Origin: an uncultured Oscillospiraceae bacterium
Lineage (GTDB): Bacteria > Bacillota > Clostridia > Oscillospirales > Ruminococcaceae
NCBI GenBank assembly: GCA_934481355.1
Contig: CAKSPH010000004.1
Coordinates: 44,815-108,814 of the forward strand
Length of the DNA stretch: 64,000 bases
Reading direction: 5' to 3'
Shown: one piece after another, positions 35,246 through 64,000 of the stretch
Position numbering within the stretch: position 1 is the first letter of the stretch
Layout of the letters: each line of letters starts with the position of its first letter
Program-made: the position numbers and the translations under genes
Notes under the pieces: model-generated
Database searches by the model: none
What the model saw: only the letters and a program-made list of their open reading frames with translations
Told to the model about the DNA's origin: nothing

Positions 35246-35302
35246 GGAACCTCTAAAAACCGGGACACGAGCAGATTTCGTACATGAATTTTAGAGGTCG
35301 CC
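35246..35302 (+). repeat. Repeat family copy C (short, internally deleted)
   Basis: A 57-base derivative of the element at 52936-53105. It keeps GGAACCTCTAAAAACCGGG and ACACGAGCAGATTTCGTA almost identically, then jumps to TTTTAGAGGTCGCC. ACCTCTAAAA and TTTTAGAGGT form a 10-bp stem. It sits in the 5' untranslated region of the lipase gene. Confidence 0.85.
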
Positions 35303-52935: not shown

Positions 52936-53105
52936 TTAAGGTAACCTCTAAAAACCGGGACACGAGCAGATTTCGTATATGACTTATATCAGATGCTAGG
53001 CGTCAAACCGCAGTAATACTGTATGTATTTCAAGGTTTGACAACGAAGCAGATGATATAAGTCATAGAAATCTGCCGTGAAGGAGGTTTTTAGAGGTTAC
53101 CTTAA
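52936..53105. repeat. Repeat family copy A (complete, MITE-like folded element)
   Basis: A 170-base non-coding element between two convergent genes. The outermost 21 bases are perfect inverted repeats (TTAAGGTAACCTCTAAAAAC at the left end and its complement at the right). Inside, GCAGATTTC pairs with GAAATCTGC, then ATGACTTATATCA with TGATATAAGTCAT, then TGC with GCA across a GA/GA mismatch. GTCAAACC pairs with GGTTTGAC, and AATAC with GTATT around the loop TGTAT. Nearly the whole element folds into one long arm. No open frame is present. The ends recur at 35246-35302 and 63852. Confidence 0.9.
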
Positions 53106-57117: not shown

Positions 57118-57804
57118 ATGAAAAAGATATTCGCGGTGCTTGCCGCCGCATTCCTGATGACCGGCTGCGCAGGAAAGACATCGTCACAGCCCGATGGCCT
57201 CACTCCCGAAACTAAAAACACCTCGTCACAGCCAGAAAGCGCCGCCGTGACCGAACAGACCGGGAGCACCTCTGCGCCCGAACAGACCGAGAGCACCGCT
57301 GCGACCGAACAGACCGGGAGCACCTCTGCGACCGAACAGACCGGGAGCACCTCTGCGACCGAACAGACCGGGAGCACCGCTGCGACGGAAGAACCGGCGG
57401 AATCCCATACGGAGGAAGCCGCTGACTCCGGCAGCCCGATAACCGTAAACTACGCCGGGGACGTAATTATTCCTGAAAGCGCGAAGGTGTTCGAATTTTC
57501 CGCCGCCGGAGCCCTGCAGCCTGTCCAGACTGTATTCACCGCCAGCCGCACGGTCGCTGACCTGAAAGTGCTTGCGCTGACCTACGAGGATATAGACGAG
57601 GACGGAAACATCACGTTTTCCGTTGAAGAGCTCATGACTATCCCGGAGTTCACCGCGGACTCCGTGCTGAATGCAAGCCTTGAATATATAGGCACGATAC
57701 CGAACAACGGAATATCCTACACCGACCCTGACGCCGGAAAAACGCGCCGCTTCGCGGTCAACATGAGCGGAAAGGACGGCTCGCTGTTCCTCTGGGAGTT
57801 CTGA
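57118..57804 (+). CDS. Lipoprotein with Thr/Glu/Ser tandem repeats
   Basis: A 228-residue exported lipoprotein (FLMTGC lipobox). Residues about 45-89 are five copies of a nine-residue unit (TEQTGSTSA and variants) forming a flexible stalk. The remaining 120 residues are a compact domain with PITVNYAGDVIIPESAKVFE and VLALTYEDIDEDGNITFSVE, which I do not recognise. The calcium-loop-like DIDEDGNITF might bind a metal. Own promoter and a ribosome site AAGGAG. It is convergent with mazF. Confidence 0.75.
   Translation: MKKIFAVLAAAFLMTGCAGKTSSQPDGLTPETKNTSSQPESAAVTEQTGSTSAPEQTESTAATEQTGSTSATEQTGSTSATEQTGSTAATEEPAESHTEEAADSGSPITVNYAGDVIIPESAKVFEFSAAGALQPVQTVFTASRTVADLKVLALTYEDIDEDGNITFSVEELMTIPEFTADSVLNASLEYIGTIPNNGISYTDPDAGKTRRFAVNMSGKDGSLFLWEF
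57250..57384 (+). repeat. Five 27-bp tandem coding repeats
   Basis: Units of 27 bases begin at 57250, 57277, 57304, 57331 and 57358. Units 3 and 4 look identical, suggesting recent expansion or conversion. Confidence 0.9.
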
Positions 57805-62368: not shown

Positions 62369-63850
62369 ATGACCGCAGTGTATGTCCGGCAGAGTATCGA
62401 CAAAAAGGACAGTATCTCAATAGAAACGCAGGTCGAATGCTGCCGGAAGTGCTGCACCGGGGAATTCCGGGTGTACTCCGACAAGGGCTGGAGCGGCAAG
62501 AATCTCGACCGCCCGGAATTCCAGCGGCTGCTTGCGGACATAAAGCGCGGCGAAATAGACAAGATAGTCGTCTACCGTCTGGACAGAATCAGCCGCTCGC
62601 TGAACGACTTCTCAAACCTGATGGAGGTTTTCAAGAAGTACGGCGTGGAATTCGCCTCCACAGTGGAGACCTTCGACACCTCCACGGCGATAGGCAGGGC
62701 TATGCTCGGTATAATAATGGTATTCGCAGAGCTGGAACGCGAGAACATTCTCCAACGTGTAAGGGACAACTACTATGCCCGCGGCGAAAAGGGACTGTAT
62801 CTGGGCGGAGTGCCCGTCTACGGCTTCGACAAGATACCTGCAAAGCTAGACGGGATAAAGACATCGGTGCTTATCCCGAACGCGGATATGAGCACGGTAG
62901 AGTACATTTTCAGCGCCTACCGTGAAAGCGGCTGCTCCCTCGGGGATATCGTCAGAACGCTTAATGCTCAGGGAGTCCCCTCCCCGGCCGGGGCGCTCTG
63001 GGACAGCAGCAAGGTCAGCCGGCTGCTCAGAAGTCCCATCTACGTCTGCGCCGACATGGAGGTCTACCGCTATTTCAAGGCAAAGGGCGCGAAAATCTCC
63101 GGCTCCGCCGGGGATTTTACCGGGCAGCACGGCTGTTTCCTCTATGGCAAGCGGGAATCCAACGAGCGTAAGTACACCGACGTCCACGACCATGTGCTCT
63201 CCATAGGCCTGCACGACGGGGTGATATCCTCAGAGCTCTGGCTGGAGGTGCAGCGCAAGCTTGACGGAAACACTCAGCTCCGCAAGGGAAAAAGCGGCAC
63301 TCATTCGTGGCTCACCGGGCTGATAAAATGCGGGAAATGCGGCTACGCAATGCGGGTGATGTCCGGGAGCTGGTTTTACTGCTCCGGCAAGGCTAACCTG
63401 CACCTCTGCGAGGGAATCTCCGGAAAGCCTGAGATTTTTGCAGCCGAGCAGGCTGTTTACTCCGAGCTGAAAAAGAAGTTCGCTGAAATCAGGGAGCTCC
63501 GCCCGAACGGAAGCGCCCCTGTCTCCCCGAAAGCGAACAAGCTTAAAATGCAGCTTGAAACGCTGAACTCCCAGATAGACAACCTTGTGAACAAGATAAC
63601 CGAAACCTCCGCCGTAATCGGGAAGGTGCTTGAAGCGAAGCTGGAGCAGCTTATTTCCGAGCGCGACAGGGCGCAGCAGGAGCTGGACAGGCTTGGCGGA
63701 GACACCCCGCGTCAGTCATACGAAAAGGTCATACCGCTTCTGGACGAATTCCCCGAAATGCCCATCAACGTGAAGCGCCAGATAGCCTCGGAATTCATCT
63801 CAAAAATCCTCATCTGGGAGGACAGAATAGAGATACAGTGGAAATTCTGA
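62369..63850 (+). CDS. Large serine recombinase
   Basis: A 493-residue site-specific recombinase. The catalytic domain (about 1-140) has the nucleophile Ser in VYVRQSIDKKDSISIETQ and the active-site arginines in VVYRLDRISRSLND, then EIDKIVVYRL and ENILQRVRDNYYARG. A Recombinase DNA-binding domain (about 165-270), a zinc ribbon (CGKCGYAM ... YCSGKANLHLC, about 318-350) and a coiled coil (about 380-440, KLKMQLETLNSQIDNLVNKI) follow. It catalyses integration, excision or inversion between att sites. No phage or conjugation genes are in view, but the window ends 150 bases later. GAGGAAGTGAAAGC precedes the ATG. Confidence 0.93.
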   Translation: MTAVYVRQSIDKKDSISIETQVECCRKCCTGEFRVYSDKGWSGKNLDRPEFQRLLADIKRGEIDKIVVYRLDRISRSLNDFSNLMEVFKKYGVEFASTVETFDTSTAIGRAMLGIIMVFAELERENILQRVRDNYYARGEKGLYLGGVPVYGFDKIPAKLDGIKTSVLIPNADMSTVEYIFSAYRESGCSLGDIVRTLNAQGVPSPAGALWDSSKVSRLLRSPIYVCADMEVYRYFKAKGAKISGSAGDFTGQHGCFLYGKRESNERKYTDVHDHVLSIGLHDGVISSELWLEVQRKLDGNTQLRKGKSGTHSWLTGLIKCGKCGYAMRVMSGSWFYCSGKANLHLCEGISGKPEIFAAEQAVYSELKKKFAEIRELRPNGSAPVSPKANKLKMQLETLNSQIDNLVNKITETSAVIGKVLEAKLEQLISERDRAQQELDRLGGDTPRQSYEKVIPLLDEFPEMPINVKRQIASEFISKILIWEDRIEIQWKF

Positions 63851-63851
63851 T

Positions 63852-64000
63852 GGTCACCTCTAAAAACCGGTTTGAAAAGTGAAAATGGGTAGAGTGCACC
63901 GAATGCGATGAAAGCCGACGAAATAAGGCTGTATGCCTTACGAGGAGGTTTTCTGAAGCAGTCGGTGTGCTATACACATTTTCACTCAAACAAGGTTTTT
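63852..64000. repeat. Repeat family copy B (cut by window end), adjacent to the recombinase
   Basis: Begins two bases after the recombinase stop with GGTCACCTCTAAAAACCGG, the same end as copies A and C. The window ends at GGTTTTT, where the complementary right end would continue. The arms differ entirely from copy A (AGTGAAAATG with CATTTTCACT; CACCGA with TCGGTG) but pair in the same places. TGC/GCA, GAAAGCC/GGTTTTC and AAGGC/GCCTT around the loop TGTAT repeat the internal layout. Confidence 0.85.

Follow-up and report, generated by a model that had tools for sequence, protein, structure and literature searches.

Repeats A and B, found in a 64-kb window of an uncultured Oscillospiraceae genome (the window being the whole stretch of 64,000 nucleotides that was analyzed), are, as judged by their sequence, non-autonomous MITEs of a large family carrying the ends of an IS5-family IS. 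What is new in them is the folded module that they carry, the MITE itself being a nameable kind of element. The explanation we favor, and hold to be reasonably probable, is that A and B are IS5-type MITEs whose tip module is selected for its fold on one strand and works as RNA.

Copies in the Window

Copy A is a complete element of 162 bp (positions 52940-53101, plus strand, which is also the folding strand), recognized by its ends, its fold, and its A-type relatives in other genomes. Its sequence displays a left terminal inverted repeat, GGTAACCTCTAAAAACC (52940-52956, plus strand), and a right one (53085-53101, minus strand), framed by the target-site duplication TTAA (52936-52939 on the left and 53102-53105 on the right). 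The conserved core of 65 nt (52990-53054, plus strand) reaches 79.0 bits with R2, the broader of the two covariance models described below. In the ORF check of the window, no ORF of at least 80 aa overlaps copy A. Copy B (63852-64000, plus and folding strand), identified by sequence and fold, is clipped by the window end. It starts with the left terminal inverted repeat GGTCACCTCTAAAAACC (63852-63868, plus strand) and harbors its 65-nt core at 63900-63964 (plus strand, 61.9 bits with R2). The preceding TGAT (63848-63851) is presumed to be its left target-site duplication, the right side lying beyond the window. A large serine recombinase gene (62369-63850) ends precisely where copy B is placed: its TGA stop codon is overlapped by the presumed duplication and left intact. 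Elsewhere in the window, an ORF at 57118-57804 contains degenerate tandem repeats around ATEQTGST.

The initial annotation, made from the letters alone, had taken A and B for a mobile-looking repeat family. Both copies are real, and a third one was overlooked: copy C (35246-35302, plus strand) is an A-like, internally deleted form of 57 bp, recognized by its ends, without the core and without an R2 match, and its 4-bp flanks, AAAT and AAAA, are non-identical. The fold claimed for A and B is borne out, with z-scores of -17.15 for A and -8.16 for B, none of 200 shuffles being as good in either case. Their arms were rightly described as unrelated, A and B representing two subfamilies with common ends and a common core, both present in other genomes. 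The two cores align gap-free (26+5+26 nt, 65 alignment columns). Both display the internal TGC...GAAGCA and mismatches at corresponding places, and the full compensatory change in the 5-bp stem under the identical loop TGTAT (AATAC/GTATT in A, AAGGC/GCCTT in B) is confirmed as well. The tip loops TGTAT and TTGAT alternate within both subfamilies, with TTTAT occurring also in B, a pattern suggestive of repeated origin or exchange of these variants.

Ends, Target Duplications, and Transposase

The pattern GGTNACCTCTAAAAACCGG was scanned against a set of 84,980 species, each represented by a single genome. Six loci were retrieved, five of which, all from Clostridia assemblies, contain the element; at L007 (Alteromonadaceae), the end pattern matched, but the palindrome is a different one. 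The 17-nt end, with at most two mismatches, occurs 33, 36, 8, 14, and 41 times in five Clostridia genomes, versus 0 to 2 times per genome for the reversed control pattern. From 75 fetched regions of these genomes, 54 two-ended copies were obtained (at most two mismatches per end, 40-600 bp). Identical 4-mers are found at the junctions in 34 of the 54; the shifted control gives 0/54 and random pairing 8.1%, and 5-mers match in none. The commonest element lengths are 159, 164, and 172 bp, and three identical copies occupy three sites in genome G004. Among the matches listed, none spans both flanks of copy A as an empty site. The initial annotation had made its proposal depend on further copies in the genome and its relatives, and many were found.

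An intact IS with A/B ends (one and zero mismatches) and a TATA duplication lies at positions 517-1757 of locus L148, in another genome of the family. Its transposase, a 343-aa protein, scores 272.4 bits against the IS5 model (cut-off 140). A broken relative is present in genome G002, and a tblastn search with the L148 transposase against the loci fetched by then retrieved only L068, L117, and L149 besides itself. The core was sought in the autonomous IS loci and not found in them (best score 10.7 bits): the IS and the MITEs share their ends, not the core. A and B display the hallmarks of MITEs, namely IS-shared ends, a 4-bp target duplication, many copies, and no transposase gene of their own. 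Of all the end types encountered, the A/B type alone is linked to a transposase.

The Conserved Core

The interior of the element is predicted to fold as a rod hairpin of ~160 nt, the ~65-nt tip of which is the core. The core pattern consists of a helix, a loop (nA/Gnn), a G-C, a second loop (GA/GA or GC/AA), 5-8 bp, a third loop (mostly C-GCA-G/C-AA-G), 5-7 bp, and a small loop at the tip. A further GA/GA loop is often located ~18 nt outside the core. Extra nested hairpins are observed within the rod of L043, L063-L065, L072, L102, L104, and L108, and also of L061, L078, L085, L092-L094, and L103; one of them, GCGACGGCAYGGACGCCGTCGC with its close variants, was encountered repeatedly in copies of the B type and of the related CCGTTGTGAA type. 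Loci L042, L047, L051, L056, and L060 form a subfamily with the same ends and a different core that retains the CGCAG...CAAG loop.

The covariance model R1 was built from 23 cores of both subfamilies. In these, 94.6% of the cells pair, and both-sided changes affect 10 of the 20 pairs (matched by 8 of 500 shuffles). The covariation score is 0.351 versus 0.124 in shuffled alignments, much of this signal being the difference between A and B, and the number of pair types is not above the control (reached by 383 of 500 shuffles). With larger sets, the alignments of which were fitted to the covariance model and lean towards it, the score amounts to 0.656 for 32 diverse cores (0.181 shuffled, at most 0.145 when slid) and to 0.690 for 105 cores, 101 of them distinct (0.183 shuffled, reached in 0/500; at most 0.116 when slid). 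Both-sided changes are found in 18 of the 20 pairs among the 101 distinct cores (shuffled mean 15.7; 3 of 500 shuffles reach 18). The internal stems are thus preserved in other copies through compensatory change. This covariation, together with the strand asymmetry described below, supports the original suggestion that a folded RNA or single-stranded DNA, and not just the transposon ends, is under selection.

The constant parts of the core are mostly unpaired: AGG[AC]...[GA]AC[GA] occurs in 92 of the 101 cores, the 3x2 loop in 93, and its strict form CGCAG...CAAG in 56, in a set found by the model and hence selected for likeness of such parts. The GA/GA loop 17-19 nt outside the core is present in 16 of 33 representative rows and in 39 of 104 overall, versus a shuffled mean of 0.58 (maximum 3) and 0/33 on the other strand. 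Searching the window with Rfam 15 at the gathering threshold gave no match. At relaxed E, 12 and 20 loci gave three matches, every one under its gathering score: COG2908 in L094 (18.8 of 58.7 bits), Thr_leader in L146 (35.2 of 55 bits, away from the element), and MIR2646 in L129, which covers the element (40 of 245 bits, E 3.7e-5) and was taken as a likeness to a long hairpin.

Strand Asymmetry

Mismatches were counted in the inner arms of the 54 of 105 elements in which both arms measure 40-60 nt. Among the cores left out, 14 had no end repeat found, copy B was excluded, and the remaining ones have arms outside 40-60 nt, often since the script picked a farther repeat. The 54 elements display 139 G.U versus 20 A.C mismatches, and 32 representatives (less than 75% identity) 84 versus 12. 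G.U prevails in 25 of these representatives and A.C in three, with four ties (p 2.7e-5), while base composition predicts a G.T to A.C ratio of ~1.15 to 1. In the same representatives, G.A/A.G mismatches number 121 versus 5 for C.T/T.C, along with 18 G.G, 13 A.A, and 6 T.T. A set of 17 unique copies, which were retrieved by DNA pattern with no use of the fold and are mutually close relatives, gives 43 G.U versus 5 A.C, and the core pairs give 74 versus 14 (105 cores). The plus strand folds better in 97 of the 105 elements, with a median of 16.8 kcal/mol (RNA energies). The asymmetry is weak in six Pseudomonadota elements, with 10 G.U versus 4 A.C and a stabler plus strand in three of the six.

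Selection on double-stranded DNA or on a cruciform would not distinguish between G.T and A.C. The strand-specific fold agrees with selection on RNA or on a single DNA strand, and not with selection on a double-stranded palindrome. The asymmetry of tolerated mismatches and of fold energy adds to the initial annotation the point that selection acts on one defined strand. Among 15 B-type copies, substitutions occurring once comprise 8 G.U and 5 A.C, and those shared between copies comprise 13 and 0 (Fisher p 0.04), a hint, given the small numbers, of selection over time.

These data bear on the idea of a functionless fold, in which the subfamilies began as perfect palindromes and quasi-palindrome correction keeps the arms matched. 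Long palindromes undergo templated repair between their arms and are corrected in this way, and some copies do contain long unbroken helices, such as the 24 pairs, counting G.U, of L083. Such correction is strand-neutral, however, and would wipe out mismatches, whereas loops are retained at corresponding places across unrelated arms, and G.U and G.A, not A.C or C.T, are tolerated on one strand. Moreover, the singleton and shared substitutions of the B-type copies make it seem, within their small numbers, that age and not mutation alone creates the asymmetry. A fold maintained by repair alone is thus very improbable. The helix of L083 also led us to drop the idea that regular interruptions serve RNase III avoidance.

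The other candidate is single-stranded DNA, one strand of which would fold at the replication fork or during conjugation or transformation and be bound by a protein. Folded single strands bound by protein are found at integron attC sites and IS200/IS605 ends, and G.T is better tolerated than A.C in DNA too. Against this, inverted repeats with 4-bp duplications typify a DDE transposase, not a single-strand one, and both the G.U share of ~10% of arm pairs (84/828) and the many G.A pairs seem RNA-like. The module is more likely to be RNA than single-stranded DNA, the latter being possible though rather unlikely in our estimate.

Position Relative to Genes

The neighborhood of 121 cores was surveyed with a crude ORF caller, which places 20 of them inside an ORF. 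The left neighbor lies on the same strand as the core in 55 of 106 cases. For the right neighbor this holds in 44 of 112, so that opposite-strand genes are slightly overrepresented on this side (p 0.03). Neighbor pairs (n=98) are co-oriented with the core in 28 cases, opposed in 36, convergent in 23, and divergent in 11. Such placement would be expected of elements that insert mainly downstream of genes and largely irrespective of strand. A fixed-orientation 3'-UTR role was not observed in this survey. The near-random gene orientation speaks against a fixed cis role in one mRNA. Many copies would yield the other strand, which counts against the favored RNA reading; single-stranded DNA as the selected object would demand no transcription and gains from it.

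As proposed for other bacterial repeats, the hairpin could be a cis-acting transcription terminator or a stabilizer of mRNA 3'-ends. The copies lie near genes (median distances of 64.5 and 81 bp), are seldom located between divergent ones, and, in the A/B type, have ends whose sequence puts five consecutive T behind the inner hairpin on either strand, all of which would suit such a role. The orientation preference is nevertheless not clear, the T run is missing from other end types (for example, L129), and the conserved internal loops would be unnecessary for a terminator, which leaves this role unlikely.

Distribution and Diversity of the Ends

In a covariance-model search of relatives, as the initial annotation had proposed, 148 genomes from the same family were examined with R1, and matches (E ≤ 0.01) occur in 32 of them, including G005, the query's own. 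R2 matches (E ≤ 0.001) number 91, 15, 12, 17, and 53 in five Clostridia genomes. At the phylum level, R2 matches 23 of 398 genomes of Bacillota, G005 (the Oscillospiraceae assembly) included, and 22 of 200 genomes of Pseudomonadota, the phylum of G549 (Alteromonadaceae), with up to 14 per genome; the E-values of both models are rough, and some phylum-level matches (L163, L167, L170, and L175) look unlike the element, in part because their place in contig-edge loci was guessed. One R2 match in G549 is absent from a stricter search. A viral origin was considered and set aside: five viral contigs have the 15-nt pattern, none showing the element on reading of its fold, and copy A has no match in phage records. 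Among plasmids, the Pseudomonadota element L263 as a query gave partial matches in four records, none covering 80%.

Those R1 matches in the family that were inspected each cap a long hairpin, in many cases one with other ends. Besides the A/B type, the core is surrounded by GAACCTGTCTTCAC, GAACCTGTATTCATAG, GAGCCTGTTCAATATC, AGGGTGTTTGCAAAC, GGGTTGTTTGAAAA, and more, making one core within more than 10 different end sequences, some of them mutually similar. Several of these elements appear, by eye, to be flanked by 3-bp or 4-bp repeats such as TTA, TAA, and CTAG. From sequence comparison, the strand-specific structured module is common to IS5-type MITEs and to MITEs of other end types.

In all 12 Pseudomonadota loci fetched, the core sits at a hairpin tip when inspected by eye. 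Of nine that were folded with more context, five (L262, L263, L269, L270, and L273) display, again by eye, an end, the core hairpin, a linker, a second hairpin whose opposite strand bears a core-like pattern, and an end; R2 recognizes this second core only in L270 (39.4 bits). Among the other folded loci, L264 has a second hairpin without the core pattern, L265 and L271 have one hairpin, and L268 is cut. The canonical core on each strand of L270, with four more such cases by eye, counts in favor of single-stranded DNA as the selected object.

Genome G040 holds end-only copies of 47 bp beside copies of ~161 bp. The end GAACCTGTCTTCAC occurs there 159 times, and the places examined are the first 100 of 159. 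The 12 fetched 47-bp copies (L282-L293) all share one common interior, in either orientation and with few substitutions, at different sites, and six of the 12 have identical 3-bp flanks. L277 and L301, which are full copies, agree with the short ones in their variant letters, which makes repeated in-place deletion at a short repeat possible. The ends alone are probably, not certainly, sufficient to spread. If they are, the core would pay otherwise, through persistence, host tolerance, or help to the whole family. No transposase partner of the GAACCTGTCTTCAC type was recognized in G040 among eight regions, in which ORF starts were judged by eye.

Comparison with Known Elements

The initial annotation could name no class for the repeats. 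The elements are indeed unlike REP/BIME and match no Rfam family at its own threshold; they can be named as MITEs with IS5-family ends. IS200/IS605 PATEs and REP/BIME also feature hairpins in repeats, and they involve Y1-type transposases without target duplication, in contrast to the inverted repeats, 4-bp duplications, and DDE transposase of the present element. REP/BIME was rejected, the element being ~160 bp long with a target duplication and the palindromes of REP/BIME being given as 20-40 bp in the description available. Integron attC sites, which are cassette recombination sites without terminal inverted repeats and target duplication, share with the element a conserved fold of variable sequence and differ from it in lacking these two features. 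ERIC, whose target is TA, was also rejected given the lengths of 159, 164, and 172 bp and the 4-bp duplications found here.

In the account available, ERIC is a 127-bp sequence family, and ERIC/RU-1 and Correia/NEMIS are sequence-defined repeats of enterobacteria and Neisseria, with an orientation-dependent mRNA effect for ERIC and a proposed RNase III cleavage for NEMIS (PMC2229807). They are small mobile elements acting at the RNA level, as the present element would be; unlike them, it keeps its fold and loops, not its sequence, with many end types in two phyla. RUP of pneumococcus, described as a short intergenic MITE with IS630 ends and a TA target, is likewise non-autonomous and carries the ends of a resident IS; it belongs to another IS family, and in that description its structure and function signature is found only in the ends (PMC2229807). 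CIR of Caulobacter, compared here by its description and not its sequence, has two hairpin arms and a linker, as do some Pseudomonadota elements, and is marked by a GANTC site (PMC2229807). A description of the element was not found in the titles and abstract openings of the papers listed by literature searches, a coverage outside which most subscription journals and preprints fall, so that its unpublished status is unproven. Within Rfam and the literature covered, the element looks undescribed.

Proposed Function and Implications

In the explanation favored here, the ~17-bp terminal inverted repeats would be cut and joined in trans by an IS5-family DDE transposase, a reaction that would leave the 4-bp target duplications. 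The ~65-nt tip of the rod hairpin would be a structured module kept by one-strand fold selection. It may work as RNA through read-through transcription of sense-lying copies and be bound by a host or transposon factor, and the lineages retaining the fold would persist longest. Catalysis of transposition probably does not depend on the fold. A broader proposal, advanced only tentatively, is that the core represents an undescribed class of mobile structured RNA. This would be a rod module residing in MITEs of several IS groups, swapping or outliving its ends, spread over at least two phyla, and acting in trans or in cis through a bound factor, like eukaryotic structured SINE RNAs but carried by DNA transposons.

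Bacterial MITEs are usually viewed as ends plus filler. Here, the filler appears to be a fold that, on one strand only, outlives both its own sequence and that of the ends. This opens to direct testing the question of whether non-autonomous elements of bacteria encode functional RNA, with 12 to 91 matches per genome in the five genomes studied first and, as ready-made controls, the natural copies that lack the core.
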